Source: a virus | Length of the DNA stretch: 24,027 bases | Virus record (IMG/VR): IMGVR_UViG_3300030419_002553 | Location: 1-24,027 of that record | Direction: 5' to 3' (one strand) | Program-made: the position numbers and the translations under genes | In this document: in pieces, positions 1,077-20,221 of the stretch | How positions within the stretch are numbered: the stretch's first letter is position 1 | Layout: each line of letters begins with the position of its first letter | The notes under the pieces: generated by a model | The model's database searches: none | The model's input: the letters and a program-made list of their open reading frames with translations, nothing else | What the model was told of the DNA's origin: nothing

Positions 1077-2837
1077 TTAACCTCGTACCTTTGATAATTG
1101 ATCATATGTCATGCTTGGGTTATAAAGTGATCCGTAACCACCGCCAACATTGGTAGTTTTATCCGCTTTAATATTATTAGTTTGAATTGGTGCGGTAACA
1201 ATAGAATTTCCTTGTGCCTTTTTTTCTAGTTCTTGTATTCTTTGTTGCATCCTCTTTAACTCTTCACCAGTGCTAGTTTGTATTTTTCTTCTCAACATGG
1301 TCATTTCACGAAGTTCTCTGAAAGACATTTGAGATTTACCTACTGCTGAACTTGGGTCTTTTGCCTCTTTGAGAGCATCAACACGTTTTATAATTTTTCT
1401 GCTTTCATTTTTTGCAATTTCTCTCATCGCCAATTCGCCGATTGGTGAAGTAAGCAAAGCACTTCCTACTTTTTCTACAACATTCTCTGTTTTAGCAAAT
1501 CCTATCATCCCACCAAAAGTGCCAGGCCTAAACCCTAACTCTTTTCTTAGTTGGGCTTTGGCTTGGTTTTGAAGCTCAATATCTTTAATATTATCTGTTG
1601 GACTGAAAAGGCCAGGGTCAATTCCTGCTTTCTTTCGGAGTTCTGCTAATATTTCTTCATATCTTCTTTTGTTCCTATTTACTTCTGTTTTTATTCCAGA
1701 TACTAGACCACCACCTTCCATTTGTGATTGGCGTTGTGCATCTGTCATCGCTGTATCAGAGACTCCTGGCGTTCCACCAATACGCTCAAGTTTACCAATT
1801 TTCATAAAGTCTGGAAGTCCTTTAGTGTTGTTTATTTGATCAATTACTTTGTTTACAGCATCAATCATCATGTTTGCCATTGCTTTTTTGAGTCGCTCAA
1901 CCGTACCACTTAGAGCTGCAAACATTGAATCTTTTGAATCGTAACCAAGAACTCTTGCTGCAAATTTTAGAAATGAGTCTCCTAAATCTTTTCCAAGTTG
2001 GACAGTATTACCAAAAGTAATATCTCCCTTTAAAAACTTTTTAAAATCCTCTACAATATCTCCACCTAATTTTTTTAAATTTTTTCCAAGTGGCACCAGA
2101 ACATTCGTATAAAAATCTGCAACGTATGGTAAAATATCATTCCGAATATATTCCACTATTTTTTTGAAGTCTTTTCCTTTCATAAAATTAATTAAAAAAA
2201 GTAAAGCACCACCAAGTAAAAGTTTACCAAAAAAACTAAGACCGCTTTTACCTATAGATTTTGCTTTTTCAAAGAGTGATCCTGCTATATTTCTAATACC
2301 TCTTCCCATGGCTCGTATAGGCGTCATTAATCTTGAAAATCCAGTTTGAATACTTTTAACAAGTTTAGAATTTGCAGCATCTGTTAGTTTTTGTCTGAGT
2401 TCTTTTCTTTTTTCAAGAAAATTTTGTCGCTTAAGAAGATCAGTGTGTCCCTGAGCAAAACTAACAAGTTTTTCAAGGGACTCTGACATATCAAGTCTTT
2501 GTTTAAAACTATCTATTTTTTCTCTTATGATGTCTTTGTCAATTAAACCTAAAAATGAATTGGACTTTTTCTGTTGCTTAAATTGTTGGTCATAATATCT
2601 CAAATCTTTGGCATTTGACTTTTCTTCTCTTTTGGTTCGTTTTACTTCAGCTTTTTCTACTCTGTCACCTTGTTCTATAGATTTTTTTGAAAATCTTCTT
2701 TGACTTAAAATAGAAATAAATTCTTCTTTTAGAAATTTGGAAGGATCAGGTTTACCATCTGCAATTGTTTGTTCACGAATAGCTAGAGTTACCTGTTGTA
2801 AACCTTTTGTTACATCTGTTAAAGTTGCTTCAGCCAT
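1077..2837 (-). CDS. 29: Putative tail tape-measure / baseplate hub protein (gp29-like)
   Basis: 586 residues, almost the length of T4 gp29 (590), which sets tail length. Residues 1-150 are highly charged and probably helical, rich in Lys/Glu/Gln. Around residues 195-220 there is a glycine-rich hydrophobic segment (GKLLLGGALLFLINFMKG), which is common in tape-measure proteins. The rest is helical and ends in a coiled-coil-like region (RMQQRIQELEKKAQ) and a Gly/Tyr-rich tail. The sequence alone is not diagnostic. The assignment rests on length, composition and position: it is the last gene of the block gp54, gp26, frameshifted gp51, small membrane protein, this gene, which matches the tube-G-GT-H order of lambda. 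It ends at the bidirectional terminator. Alternative: another large virion structural protein. Confidence 0.6.
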   Translation of the reverse strand: MAEATLTDVTKGLQQVTLAIREQTIADGKPDPSKFLKEEFISILSQRRFSKKSIEQGDRVEKAEVKRTKREEKSNAKDLRYYDQQFKQQKKSNSFLGLIDKDIIREKIDSFKQRLDMSESLEKLVSFAQGHTDLLKRQNFLEKRKELRQKLTDAANSKLVKSIQTGFSRLMTPIRAMGRGIRNIAGSLFEKAKSIGKSGLSFFGKLLLGGALLFLINFMKGKDFKKIVEYIRNDILPYVADFYTNVLVPLGKNLKKLGGDIVEDFKKFLKGDITFGNTVQLGKDLGDSFLKFAARVLGYDSKDSMFAALSGTVERLKKAMANMMIDAVNKVIDQINNTKGLPDFMKIGKLERIGGTPGVSDTAMTDAQRQSQMEGGGLVSGIKTEVNRNKRRYEEILAELRKKAGIDPGLFSPTDNIKDIELQNQAKAQLRKELGFRPGTFGGMIGFAKTENVVEKVGSALLTSPIGELAMREIAKNESRKIIKRVDALKEAKDPSSAVGKSQMSFRELREMTMLRRKIQTSTGEELKRMQQRIQELEKKAQGNSIVTAPIQTNNIKADKTTNVGGGYGSLYNPSMTYDQLSKVRG

Positions 2838-2845
2838 AACTTACC

Positions 2846-3196
2846 CTACTTCTTTACATTTACTTCTGAATCTTTGCTTCTAACGTAAGCTTCCTTACCA
2901 AAGAATGCTGCAACTATTGCTGCAACCGATACAAAGTATGTTGGGGCCATATCACCCAAAACAGTTGATGCCTTTTCTATACCAAACCAAGAGGATAACA
3001 CCACTAACGCTGGATATAACAACATACCCCATAATGCAAACCATGCCATGTGACGTTGAGCATCTTCTTTTGCATCCTCGTTTTCTAGTCTTATCATTTT
3101 CTCTTCCATTGCCAATTCCTCATCTGTCACAATTCCATCACCATCAAGATCATACTTATTATATTGACTGCCAGGTTCTAACTTCTTTTGAGCCAT
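2846..3196 (-). CDS. Small membrane protein with an EF-hand calcium-binding loop
   Basis: 116 residues. Residues 16-27 (DLDGDGIVTDEE) form a textbook 12-residue EF-hand loop, with Asp at positions 1, 3 and 5, Gly at 6 and Glu at 12. Residues of about 50-71 and 84-102 are hydrophobic and likely membrane-spanning, followed by a charged tail (KEAYVRSKDSEVNVKK). Two helices and a charged C-terminus recall small holins, but no holin family is recognised. A strong ribosome site (GGGGGAG) lies 5 nt before the ATG, and a late-promoter-like AATAAATA lies just upstream. It sits between the gp51-like gene and the tape measure, so it is likely expressed late with tail genes. Role unknown: holin, virion membrane-contact protein or assembly factor are all possible. 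Confidence 0.8.
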   Translation of the reverse strand: MAQKKLEPGSQYNKYDLDGDGIVTDEELAMEEKMIRLENEDAKEDAQRHMAWFALWGMLLYPALVVLSSWFGIEKASTVLGDMAPTYFVSVAAIVAAFFGKEAYVRSKDSEVNVKK

Positions 3197-3219: not shown

Positions 3220-3402
3220 TTATTTATTTCTCTCCATTGCTTCTTTTTCTTCTTCCAAAAGATTAATTAATAAACCTACGTATATGTCCCTCTCCCAAGG
3301 TATTAAGTTTTCTATGTCTCTTAAATTCCAGTGATGATGTTGTATCAACGCAAAATTTGTTTTATAGTAATTAGTTAAATCGTCATGAGAGAGGGCTATT
3401 AG
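3220..3402 (-). CDS. 51: gp51-like tail/baseplate hub assembly chaperone, expressed by -1 frameshift from gp26
   Basis: An open frame of 60 sense codons with no ATG or GTG at its head. It contains NYYKTNFALIQHHHWNLRDI and ENLIPWERDIYVGLL, which resemble the short gp51-type proteins encoded after gp26 in T4-like phages. The frame is -1 relative to gp26 and is entered exactly at a canonical slippery heptamer on the last two sense codons of gp26. The first possible initiator is a TTG at codon 19, inside the recognisable region, which argues against independent initiation. The expected product is a gp26-gp51 fusion of about 290 residues, analogous to lambda gpGT. The gp51 family match is from memory and moderate; that the frame is coding is more certain than its name. 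Confidence 0.7.
   Translation of the reverse strand, partial: LIALSHDDLTNYYKTNFALIQHHHWNLRDIENLIPWERDIYVGLLINLLEEEKEAMERNK
3221..3228 (-). promoter_or_regulatory. Possible late promoter (AATAAATA) for the EF-hand membrane gene
   Basis: On the minus strand AATAAATA fits the NATAAATA late-promoter form described for marine T4-like phages. It overlaps the last codons and stop of the gp51-like frame (AAT AAA TAA) and lies 24 nt before the next ATG, which leaves a short leader containing the GGGGGAG ribosome site. Because it also encodes Asn-Lys-stop, it could be coincidence. Confidence 0.4.
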
Positions 3403-4091
3403 AAAAAACTTGCAACTCCATCAATAACCACTTCACCTTTCTTTTTTGTTTTTGGATTTGTCACCTCTACTACGTGTTGAACTTTCGGCATACTGTCAAA
3501 AAAATCTGTTACCTTATCAAACTGATCAGATGAAAGACTATCGACAAATTCTACTAATTCTTTTTCAGACATATCCACTTTATGATAAACTTTTTTACCA
3601 TCATGAATTTCATGAACGCAACGGTAAACCATCTTAAATATATCATCTACTTCATCTGCGCCTAACATATCATCAAGTCTAGGATATCTCATCACCATTT
3701 TTATCTTGTCTGTAATTACAATCTCATTGGTGTGTCCCTCTTTCATGATTACATCAACGTCCTCTAATTTGATAGTTTTTTTAACTTTTGTTTCTTCATC
3801 GTCTGGACACAATAAATTTAAATCTACGCTCTCTCCTACAGATTTACCACGTATCCTTAAAAATAATAGTTCAACATCAAATAGAGGAATATCAAATGGA
3901 TTAATTTTCTCAAATGTGCATTGAGAAATAACATCTGCCATTGCATTTTTGATACTGTTTTCGTCTTCAGATTCTTGAGCCATCATCAGTTGTTTTTGTT
4001 CTTTAACTAAGAATGGTCTGTATTTTATCATTTCACCTGTAGAAGGCTGTTCCAACTCATAGGTTGGACTGTTAAGTTTTGGTAATGCCAT
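3399..4091 (-). CDS. 26: gp26 baseplate hub / tail assembly protein
   Basis: 230 residues (T4 gp26 has 208). The N-terminus LNSPTYELEQPSTGEMIKYR followed by PFLVKEQKQLMMAQESED is characteristic of the T4 gp26 family (Pfam T4_baseplate). gp26 acts in assembly of the central baseplate hub, and its layout next to gp54 and the tape measure suggests a chaperone role like lambda gpG. The gene is followed without spacing by the gp51-like frame and ends at the slippery heptamer, so two products are predicted: gp26 alone and a gp26-gp51 fusion. An AAGGATG ribosome site precedes the ATG. The minus-strand late block includes gp54 just upstream (17-nt gap). Confidence 0.85.
   Translation of the reverse strand: MALPKLNSPTYELEQPSTGEMIKYRPFLVKEQKQLMMAQESEDENSIKNAMADVISQCTFEKINPFDIPLFDVELLFLRIRGKSVGESVDLNLLCPDDEETKVKKTIKLEDVDVIMKEGHTNEIVITDKIKMVMRYPRLDDMLGADEVDDIFKMVYRCVHEIHDGKKVYHKVDMSEKELVEFVDSLSSDQFDKVTDFFDSMPKVQHVVEVTNPKTKKKGEVVIDGVASFF
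3402..3408 (-). promoter_or_regulatory. Programmed -1 ribosomal frameshift site (T TTT TTC)
   Basis: Read on the minus strand in the gp26 frame, the sequence is AGT TTT TTC TAA TAG. T TTT TTC is a perfect X XXY YYZ heptamer placed on the two final sense codons before tandem stops. A -1 slip gives TTT TTT CTA ATA GCC and enters the 60-codon gp51-like frame. No convincing downstream stem or pseudoknot was found by eye. Confidence 0.7.
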
Positions 4092-4108: not shown

Positions 4109-4831
4109 TTATAAATTACGTCCAAGTTTATTCAATACTCTGGGAATGTTTCTAGTTAGATTTCTCTCCGCACTATTGACAACGGTTGTTAAAACTTTAT
4201 CGAAGATGTTGATGCCTGGATTTTGACTTTGATCTAAACTTGTCCAATATCTAAAACTAAAGCTCACTCCTGTCATGAACAATTGGTCATTTGCGTCATA
4301 TGCTAATGCAGTTGGATTTATAGTTTTTGGAAAAACTTCCCACAACTTGACTCCGTATCTCCTTTGGTTCTGTTGATCTAAAATGTAAATTTCTAAAAAA
4401 CCAGTGTAGTCATCATAGTACTGCACGTTCCATGTATTTTGATCAAATGCTTGTTGTTGCCAGTTCTCAAAAAAAACTCTCTCCGATAATCCAGATGTTG
4501 ATTGAAACTCAATGTCAATATCATCAGCGTAAGTAACACCTTCTACAATTTCTCTGTTTGGCCCGTATATATTATCATCTGTTCCAGTTGCTAAACTTCT
4601 GCCAGGCAGAGTGACACTCTGTGCTTTTAGAGAAATTTTTCTTAAATCAGACAATCTCTCTGTTCCGCCAAACATATTTGATTGATTTCCACCACCTCTT
4701 TTTGTGGGGGGAATAATTACTATCTCATATTTGTTTGGTTGTGCGTACCCATTGTTATCATGAAATAATGATACTAGATCATTCAATACACCAAAAGCTG
4801 TACCTTCTATAAAATTAGGAATTTTTACCAT
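4109..4831 (-). CDS. 54: gp54-like baseplate tail-tube initiator
   Basis: 240 residues. It has the tail-tube fold signature shared by gp19, gp48 and gp54: an early strand YEIVIIPPTK, then SLKAQSVTLPGRS, a middle block around FFENWQQQAFD, and the late FLEIYILDQQNQRRYGVKLW and EVFPKTINPTALAYD stretches. It is shorter than T4 gp54 (320) and longer than gp19 (163). Because a longer gp48 homologue is present at 5878, gp54 is the better assignment here; a second tube-like protein is the alternative. gp54 sits on gp48 at the top of the baseplate and starts tube polymerisation. The start overlaps the stop of the upstream gene (TAATG), indicating translational coupling. Confidence 0.75.
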   Translation of the reverse strand: MVKIPNFIEGTAFGVLNDLVSLFHDNNGYAQPNKYEIVIIPPTKRGGGNQSNMFGGTERLSDLRKISLKAQSVTLPGRSLATGTDDNIYGPNREIVEGVTYADDIDIEFQSTSGLSERVFFENWQQQAFDQNTWNVQYYDDYTGFLEIYILDQQNQRRYGVKLWEVFPKTINPTALAYDANDQLFMTGVSFSFRYWTSLDQSQNPGINIFDKVLTTVVNSAERNLTRNIPRVLNKLGRNL

Positions 4832-5392: not shown

Positions 5393-5836
5393 TTATTTAT
5401 AACGAATACCTAATTCTTCCTCTGTAAGTATCTTGAATTCCATGTCATTAGTCTTACACCATTTGGTTGCGTGTTTCCACTTTGCTTCATTTATACTATA
5501 GGTTTTAATCTCGTTTAACCATTTTTTAGTTTTTCTAGTCACAGGTTTCGGTGGTCTAGTTTGTTTTTTAGGTTTAACCTCTATGATGAACTTTTTTATG
5601 TTACCAGACGATTGTTTTACCTTAATATAAAAATCTGGAAAATAACGATGGATTTTACCATCCCAAGGAGATAAATAAGGTATAATGATCTCTTCACTTC
5701 CCCACTCAAGTATATTGTCGCTATTATCACAATACACCATAAACTTTCGCTCCCATAGAGAACGATAGATTATGTTGTGATAATCTCCTTTATACTTTTT
5801 AGGATTTTTGGGAGTGTATCTACCTTTGTATGCCAT
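5393..5836 (-). CDS. 4: gp4 head completion protein
   Basis: 147 residues, close to T4 gp4 (150). The N-terminus GRYTPKNPKKYKGDYHNIIY, then RSLWERKFMVYCDN, EEIIIPYLSPWDGKIHRYFP and DFYIKV, match the gp4 (gene 50/65) head-completion family. These carry the E...D...K pattern of nuclease-like folds (SEEIIIPY, FPDFYI, EVKPKK), so a restriction-endonuclease-type core is plausible. In T4 gp4 acts late in head maturation before tail joining. It is the first gene of the leftward late block, divergent from gp48 across a 41-nt gap. No clear ribosome site precedes the ATG. Confidence 0.9.
   Translation of the reverse strand: MAYKGRYTPKNPKKYKGDYHNIIYRSLWERKFMVYCDNSDNILEWGSEEIIIPYLSPWDGKIHRYFPDFYIKVKQSSGNIKKFIIEVKPKKQTRPPKPVTRKTKKWLNEIKTYSINEAKWKHATKWCKTNDMEFKILTEEELGIRYK
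5394..5401 (-). promoter_or_regulatory. Possible T4-type late promoter (TATAAATA) upstream of the 185-residue virion gene
   Basis: The minus strand reads TATAAATA, the exact T4 late consensus, five bases before the next ATG (5388). It overlaps the last codons of gp4 (TAT AAA TAA, Tyr-Lys-stop). A start about six bases downstream would make the transcript leaderless or nearly so. Coding constraint could explain it, so confidence is limited. Confidence 0.4.
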
Positions 5837-18835: not shown

Positions 18836-19241
18836 ATTTATAATTTATACAGTGCCTGATTGCTCTGAGTGCAATGATGCTAAGGAGTTGATATTAAATC
18901 AAGGAATGTCATTTGCAGAGTGCTCTTTAGAAACACAGGAACAAGTTGATGAATTTCACAGACGATACGGACACACCACTGTTCCGCAAGTGTATCTGGC
19001 CACAGAGGAGCAAGAGTATATCGGTAATCATGTAGACTTAGAAAAATTTATACTACAAGCTCTAGACTCAAGAAGAGTGCAAACATTAATGATGGGCACT
19101 GGATATGGGGGTGGAGCTCCAACTGTTCATGTGCGTCAGGGAAAGGATGGATCAACAACTATTTCAGAGGAAGAGGGCGTGAAAGGATATAATATATCTA
19201 TTAAGGAAAAAGAGGAAATGAAGGATATTACCCCACGATGA
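18825..19241 (+). CDS. Glutaredoxin-like protein with a C-terminal extension (CSEC)
   Basis: 138 residues. Residues 1-85 are glutaredoxin-like: FIIYTVPDCSECNDAKELIL has a CxxC (Cys13, Cys16), then FAECSLETQEQVDEF, TTVPQVYL and YIGNHVDLEKFI. The CSEC site is acidic and unusual. Residues about 90-138 form an extension rich in Gly, Lys and Glu (GTGYGGGAPTVHVRQGKDG, then EEEGVKGYNISIKEKEEM) that is not part of the fold. It follows the first glutaredoxin in tandem, and overlaps the next gene by 4 nt. Possible roles are a more specialised disulphide partner or an Fe-S scaffold. Confidence 0.82.
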   Translation: MSFKFIIYTVPDCSECNDAKELILNQGMSFAECSLETQEQVDEFHRRYGHTTVPQVYLATEEQEYIGNHVDLEKFILQALDSRRVQTLMMGTGYGGGAPTVHVRQGKDGSTTISEEEGVKGYNISIKEKEEMKDITPR

Positions 19242-20221
19242 AAAAAATAACAACACCAATTGATTATGGATATAAAGAAACTTTTACAAAATGGAATGGA
19301 AAGTTTTTAGATAAAATTGACGATATAGAAGTAATAAAGGTAACGGATGAAGATGTTGGGATTATGAAACCTGTAAAGCCATTGGATGGTTCAGACGTTC
19401 CCCTTGCGTATGTTATTACAAATGCGTATCCAGAAAACAGTTCTGTACGAAAAGTTCTTATGAATATTGAGGATACATCAGTGATGAGGGCTAATTGCTC
19501 TGGTCCTATTTTAGAAGAGGATATGCTCGCAAAGGGACTTGTCAAAGATGTGGATTATAAGCTTCGATCCCCAAACTCATATCAGGTAAGAAACAAAAAC
19601 GGATCATGGGGTATGATTGCTTATTCTAATGAGATACATTCAGTAATGATCGGATACAAACGTGGAAGATTCACAGGGAGCATTGATGCTTCAGGGTGGA
19701 CAAAGGAACATCCCGAAGAGTGGAAAACTCTACAGGATATTTCCAAATATAATGAAGATGCATTTAAAAAGGCCAATCTAGCCGTATACAACAAACAGAA
19801 AGCATTTTGTGACGCACATATTGAACCAAAATATCGTATTGGTGGTGGCATATTTACAACTCTATCTGCAAACCGATATCATGTCGGACAAAGTGCAAAG
19901 ATGAGTTGTCATGTGGATAGTGGTGATCTTAATGCAGGCTTGACCACAATGAGCTGCATGAGAGAGGGTGACTATACTGGTGCATATCTAACTTTTCCAA
20001 GGTATGGAATTGCGATTGACGCACCAGACAATAGTGTAATCATTGCAGACAGTAACGAAGTGCATGGCGTGACTCCGATTGAGGGTAATGGTCAACGGTT
20101 TACTTGCGTTGCATATTGTGATAATCGACTTGCAACGAAGGGTGTTGCAGGCAAATCGGAAAGAAAGATTGGAAGATTTGCAAAAGAGGAAACTGGTGAT
20201 TTATCAGAGTTTATCTCTTGA
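19238..20221 (+). CDS. TET/JBP-like 2OG-Fe(II) dioxygenase, probable DNA base hydroxylase
   Basis: 327 residues. The C-terminal third holds a TET/JBP-type double-stranded beta-helix: KMSCHVDSGDLNAGLTTMSC gives the HxD pair (His225, Asp227), MREGDYTGAYLTFPRYGIAI matches the 'REG.yTGg.l.fPrY' stretch of JBP1-like enzymes, and ADSNEVHGVTPI supplies the distal His276, followed by Arg287 for 2OG. The spacing from first to distal His (51) agrees with JBP1 (about 50). The N-terminal part has RANCSGP and GRFTGSIDASG, compatible with the family's N-terminal domain. These enzymes oxidise the methyl group of 5-methylcytosine or thymine in DNA. A C5-cytosine methyltransferase lies 2.5 kb downstream, beyond gp43, making 5-methylcytosine the expected substrate. 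No search was run; the family call rests on motifs. Confidence 0.78.
   Translation: MKKITTPIDYGYKETFTKWNGKFLDKIDDIEVIKVTDEDVGIMKPVKPLDGSDVPLAYVITNAYPENSSVRKVLMNIEDTSVMRANCSGPILEEDMLAKGLVKDVDYKLRSPNSYQVRNKNGSWGMIAYSNEIHSVMIGYKRGRFTGSIDASGWTKEHPEEWKTLQDISKYNEDAFKKANLAVYNKQKAFCDAHIEPKYRIGGGIFTTLSANRYHVGQSAKMSCHVDSGDLNAGLTTMSCMREGDYTGAYLTFPRYGIAIDAPDNSVIIADSNEVHGVTPIEGNGQRFTCVAYCDNRLATKGVAGKSERKIGRFAKEETGDLSEFIS

Follow-up and report, generated by a model that had tools for sequence, protein, structure and literature searches.

The window, the whole stretch of DNA analysed here, is a 24-kb viral record (24,027 nt) that at the DNA level resembles cyanophages, pelagiphages and Methylophilales phages in patches only. 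The locus lies on its minus strand, an orientation absent from the sequence-only reading that first drew attention to it, and all of its features share that strand:

4109-4831, minus strand: tail tube gene (gp54/gp19-like), upstream of gp26 (phrog_45, E=1e-30)
3399-4091, minus strand: gp26 homologue, short form (TAC-N), 230 aa, zero frame (PF12322 T4_baseplate, E=7e-65; phrog_150, E=9e-69)
3416-3419, minus strand: Shine–Dalgarno (SD)-like GGAG, 7 nt upstream of the heptamer (from the sequence)
3402-3408, minus strand: slippery heptamer T TTT TTC, in frame with gp26 (from the sequence and its conservation)
3396-3401, minus strand: zero-frame stops TAA TAG, which double as the 6-nt spacer between heptamer and stem (from the sequence)
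3386-3395, minus strand: 5′ arm of the predicted downstream stem, CCCUCUCUCA (from the fold; synonymous-codon shuffles give z=-4.4, p=0.005 for the duplex)
3288-3297, minus strand: 3′ arm of the predicted stem, UGGGAGAGGG, in the codons of PWER, a conserved motif (from the fold and the shuffle and tree tests)
3220-3402, minus strand: -1 extension with the gp51 domain, the C-terminal part of the long form, 60 codons plus stop (phrog_634 'baseplate hub assembly catalyst', E=8e-27)
2846-3196, minus strand: 116-aa ORF directly after gp51, with an EF-hand-like loop DLDGDGIVTDEE and hydrophobic (TM-like) segments (from the sequence)
1077-2837, minus strand: 586-aa ORF whose position and length alone make it the putative tape measure (no family match)

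The genes thus run tail tube, gp26/gp51, 116-aa ORF and putative tape measure, the last placed by position and length only; the 116-aa ORF has no match in Pfam, the 586-aa ORF none in Pfam or PHROG. Of the λ order V-G-GT-H first proposed for this locus, the tail tube gene before gp26 stands (phrog_45), whereas the tape measure is not adjacent and is assigned from its position. The genes 5′ of gp26 encode the tail tube, a DNA end protector and a head closure protein. The head closure (gp4-like) protein (5393-5836, minus strand) has a second match, to the TnsA-like endonuclease N-terminal domain (PF08722, E=2e-22). Elsewhere in the window, a plus-strand ORF (19238-20221) resembles queuine tRNA-ribosyltransferase-like phage proteins (phrog_24024, phrog_6059).

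The 3′ end of gp26 reads GAT GGA GTT GCA AGT TTT TTC TAA TAG. The heptamer is formed by the T of AGT and the final two sense codons, TTT TTC, and is followed at once by TAA TAG, exactly as first read (3408-3396, minus strand). The -1 frame, whose first codon is CTA (3402), stays open for 60 codons until its stop is reached at 3220. It is indeed gp51-like (phrog_634, E=8e-27) and indeed devoid of a usable start: when the window's -1 frame is read, no ATG occurs before residue 56 and no GTG anywhere, and the only TTG noted is residue 19, a start at which would lose the conserved N-terminal part. The predicted gp26-gp51 fusion has 290 aa, and its junction peptide crosses SFF and contains DGVASFFLIALSHDD.

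Relatives were gathered by five IMG/VR scans and from phage records, and their junctions were read with gp26 and gp51 profile HMMs; 385 analysable loci gave 262 distinct junctions. An in-frame T_TTT_TTN is present in 258 of the 262 (N = C in 189, A in 40, T in 26 and G in 3), against a background of 60 in-frame T_TTT_TT in 59,408 codon positions of gp26 bodies (∼ 0.1%). At all 257 distinct junctions with a recognised downstream gp51, gp51 lies in the -1 frame; two of the five others (L236 and Menderavirus Ps15) have an open -1 frame with gp51-like sequence. Alignment of the relatives' gp26/gp51 regions, suggested beforehand as a check, therefore finds heptamer and frame overwhelmingly conserved. 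Between the heptamer and the zero-frame stop lie 1 codon in 215 junctions, 0 in 28, 8 in 13 and 2 in 2; given this variation, it is the heptamer rather than the stop that is conserved. For the slippery Phe, 255/255 relatives use TTT, compared with 77% of Phe codons elsewhere. The same layout is found in the isolates S-PM2, P-SSM4, S-SM2, Mosig, Melnitz and phiAS5, as well as in the KVP40-type VH1_2019, Rhizobium AF3, a Desulfovibrio phage and a Variovorax phage. L177 was rejected as a locus lacking the site: close to the end of its contig, shortly ahead of the junction (near 2140-2205), its sequence parts from that of otherwise near-identical relatives, probably because the assembly is chimeric.

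Genes 26 and 51 of T4 are separate, as the sequence-only reading stated, and divergently transcribed. Residues 1-201 of T4 gp51 match PF12322 (E=4e-52) and residues 206-243 align with the window's -1 domain (hhalign, E=1.4e-4); T4 gp51 matches PHROG 634 with E=1e-23. T4 gp51 is therefore a gp26-like domain followed by a gp51 tail, so that T4 gp26 corresponds to the short form and gp51 to the whole long form. The proposal that a frameshifted locus could link the two arrangements had not foreseen this, and the link is stronger than was thought. By these comparisons T4 has paralogous genes for the short and long forms, whereas the frameshift locus encodes both with one copy of the domain. The window has a single locus with a -1 overlap; 44RR has two genes in the T4 layout. 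Besides Kyanoviridae, the frameshift layout is found in Pootjesviridae and others and, among Straboviridae, in phiAS5 and KVP40-type phages; this distribution suggests, without proving it, that the two-gene layout is the derived state. Klebsiella phage CP-p-KP-21068 (L405, 1501-2792) carries tandem same-strand 'baseplate hub' genes, the first with a gp51 tail and the second with a weakly gp26-like C-terminal part; the pair is possibly an intermediate between a frameshift locus and the divergent pair of T4.

An ATG-initiated gp51 in the absence of the heptamer, the arrangement that would count against a shift, was seen only in distant phages: the phiW-14-like Cygsa01 (L169), Ackermannviridae (Dickeya PP35, L171; LHE287, L403) and Vibrio phage K413 (L404). 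These four loci have NTT TTC one codon before TAATG, and the gp51-like ORF in their -1 frame is a weak match, or in K413 was identified by eye. NTT TTC may be a weaker shift site of the U_UUC tetramer type, or the site may serve reinitiation.

Upstream of the heptamer, a purine-rich SD-like motif ending 8-10 nt before it is present in 237 of 255 relatives. Gly stands three codons ahead of the slippery NNT codon in 255/255, and the Glu before that Gly is encoded by GAG in 140/195 (72%) versus 25% elsewhere in gp26, which gives GAGGG-like motifs; this GAG-versus-GAA bias is a strong pooled count across relatives that ignores relatedness. Locus-by-locus tests of SD strength against synonymous shuffles gave no significant result (mean z -0.57, p≤0.05 in 1/49). 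SD-like stimulators of -1 shifts work 9-14 nt upstream according to a review (PMC5009743); the window's motif (GGAG, 7 nt) is weaker and nearer than those of most relatives.

Folding of the downstream RNA, also suggested at the outset, revealed no local hairpin directly after the heptamer in the window. A longer fold gave instead a long-range stem of 10 bp that starts 6 nt after the heptamer (p=0.005), with arms ∼ 90 nt apart and a loop of ∼ 88 nt. The model tested in relatives has 12 pairs at the same offset, in a region that aligns gap-free. With the protein fixed and local codon usage kept, shuffles of 43 representatives at 80% nucleotide identity gave p≤0.05 for the stem duplex in 23/43 clusters (mean z -2.0, Wilcoxon p ∼ 1e-8) and a mean MFE z of -2.65 over 116 nt. 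The stem is paired in 71.9% of cases, versus 37-62% for slid versions.

The clearest covariation is between columns 28 and 127 of alignment A4, third-codon sites 99 nt apart, which pair as C-G in 12 clusters and as U-A in 10. On a tree made solely from the gp26 protein, 8.3 changes went the same way versus 0.5 the opposite way among 14 supported independent pairs (median sign-test p=0.016); a first, smaller tree test of the same columns was underpowered. None of ∼ 45 control columns set against column 28 was comparable, the next best giving 4.9 versus 1.2. The stem pairs 25/130 and 34/121 tended in the same direction on the tree without reaching significance. By covariation score, a partner slid by +2 beats the true stem on both A4 and A2; this score alone is therefore no evidence, and the case is made by the shuffle test, the percentage paired and the tree test. 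Alignment A5 was chosen for good stems and is illustrative only.

The long-range stem is missing from roughly half of the clusters, among which are some with a local hairpin and some with neither structure. In six loci with TTTTTTA (L021, L025, L026, L029, L032 and L036) the place of the long-range stem is taken, ∼ 5 nt past the heptamer, by a local hairpin with 8 perfect base pairs, which in L021 has the form GGGCUCUC-UCAC-GAGAGCCU (z=-3.7). A search of Rfam gave no match. A stable, covarying structure that starts ∼ 5-9 nt past the heptamer is expected of a -1 frameshift stimulator, and the stem, with its 6-nt spacer and 10 pairs, has this placement in about half of the clusters. It is a putative stimulator of frameshifting. 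We rate as an even chance the fuller proposal that the long-range stem is conserved in marine T4-like phages, sets the ratio of short to long chaperone and has given way to local hairpins in some sister lineages. The literature searched yielded no earlier description of the downstream stem, although one may still exist.

Taken together, the data support the -1 frameshifted gp26-gp51 fusion analogous to λ G/GT that had been proposed (heptamer in 258/262 junctions, -1 frame in 257/257), and we are confident that a single recoded gene, comprising gp26 and the -1 ORF, encodes the tail assembly chaperones (TACs) of the phage and is expressed by programmed -1 frameshifting. At the level of sequence the reading is borne out by the heptamer, the open -1 frame and the gp51 homology, by the conservation of all three across phages and by the covariation of the stem. 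Frameshifting itself and its rate, stimulation by the stem and the SD-like element and the chaperone function are predictions from these features. Most ribosomes would stop at TAA and release the 230-aa short form. A minority would pause on T TTT TTC and slip back by one base, the P- and A-site tRNA-Phe re-pairing in the -1 frame, to yield the 290-aa fusion; pausing is probably aided by the upstream GGAG and the downstream stem. U_UUU_UUC is an efficient shift motif in Escherichia coli (PMC4066793). If λ gpG/gpGT is a guide, the tape measure would be coated by many copies of the short form, and the rare long form would bring in tail tube subunits.

We favour the chaperone reading because TACs of T4-like phages have been identified in the literature (as cited in PMC10885494 and PMC12846349) and because of the λ analogy (PMC5009743). 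The source for the former, as given through these two papers, is Vladimirov, Gautam and Davidson (2022, Virology 566:9-15). It is there credited with two points, that T4-like phages can have separate genes for short and long TACs and that poly-T is a known -1 shift signal in their TAC-N genes, and, as these papers relay it, a reading of T4-type gp26/gp51 in the manner of G/GT is not new. A sequence search of solved structures found no relative. The AlphaFold model of gp26 (pLDDT 86.7) has as its top-probability PDB matches listed by Foldseek the HK97 tail assembly chaperone 2ob9 (0.30, 0.25) and the entry 3fgx (0.23), with non-significant E values of 2-5; the weak resemblance of the model to solved tail chaperones is suggestive only.

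Could gp51 instead be a separate protein, made by termination-reinitiation (translational coupling) after the gp26 stop? An ATG lies close to that stop in the gp51 frame at 79/257 junctions, Cygsa01, Dickeya PP35 and LHE287 have TAATG without a heptamer, and database annotators call gp51 a separate gene. The window is not among the 79 and has no suitably placed ATG or GTG. Reinitiation also leaves unexplained a heptamer kept in 258/262 junctions at variable distance from the stop, and T4 gp51 is itself the fused form. None of 12 heptamer-bearing annotated records opened has a joined gp26-gp51 gene. In the annotated records (L163-L172, L397-L404) gp51 stands apart; it is missing altogether from those of S-SSM4 and Syn30, and in Mosig and Melnitz, for example, its annotated start falls within the conserved domain. 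We regard reinitiation as very unlikely.

We think it still less probable that RNA polymerase slips on the T run and so generates the -1 product by transcriptional slippage. The shift site is a homopolymer, long T runs can slip, and 26/258 junctions have T7-T8. Polymerase slippage usually needs about nine or more T, and in 232/258 junctions the run has exactly six, which is short for this mechanism. The conserved phase of the heptamer, the SD-like motif and the downstream stem are moreover features of ribosomal shifting. The idea that a sequencing or assembly error split one in-frame gene, for which nothing speaks beyond the usual prior for homopolymer-bearing metagenome contigs, has a negligible probability, as hundreds of independent contigs, and finished isolate genomes too, show the same frame relation; conservation across relatives rules out both error and chance as the origin of the junction.

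Programmed -1 frameshifting within a single gene thus remains our reading, and it places the locus beside several known systems. With λ gpG/gpGT and the wider class of TAC frameshifts it shares a short ORF with a heptamer at its 3′ end, a -1 extension that has no usable start and, provided that the tape measure is rightly assigned from its position, a location between the tail tube and tape measure genes. It differs from λ in belonging to a contractile-tailed T4-like phage, in its gp26/gp51 families, in using T_TTT_TTC rather than the λ heptamer, in the additional small ORF that precedes the putative tape measure and in the long-range downstream stem. Compared with T4, the window's gp26 belongs to PF12322 together with T4 gp26, and the C-terminal tail of T4 gp51 has its homologue in the window's -1 ORF; T4 has two divergent genes, gp51 carrying its own gp26-like domain, whereas the window has a shared domain and a frameshifted tail. 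The TAC genes of Vandenendeviridae and Andersonviridae myoviruses (PMC12846349) likewise carry a conserved T-run -1 site towards the 3′ end of TAC-N, with a -1 frame open in all members, but they are from other families and their motif is GTTTTT rather than T_TTT_TTN. The -1 signals of E. coli dnaX and IS elements combine an SD-like upstream element, a heptamer and a downstream structure after a short spacer, as here; that structure is a compact hairpin or pseudoknot, in contrast to the ∼ 88-nt loop of the window.

What the window contributes is an unannotated, predicted frameshift TAC locus and a downstream stem, the latter with no description found in the literature searched. The locus exposes a systematic misannotation of gp51. 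One of the ocean's most abundant phage groups, related to cyanophages and pelagiphages, seems to frameshift for its tail chaperones where T4 uses two genes, and since the two arrangements are homologous, the switch between them is open to study. The covarying downstream stem is a specific, testable candidate for the stimulator; if the proposal made for it is true, the long-range stem would be a new type of stimulator for the frameshifting of phage tail chaperones.
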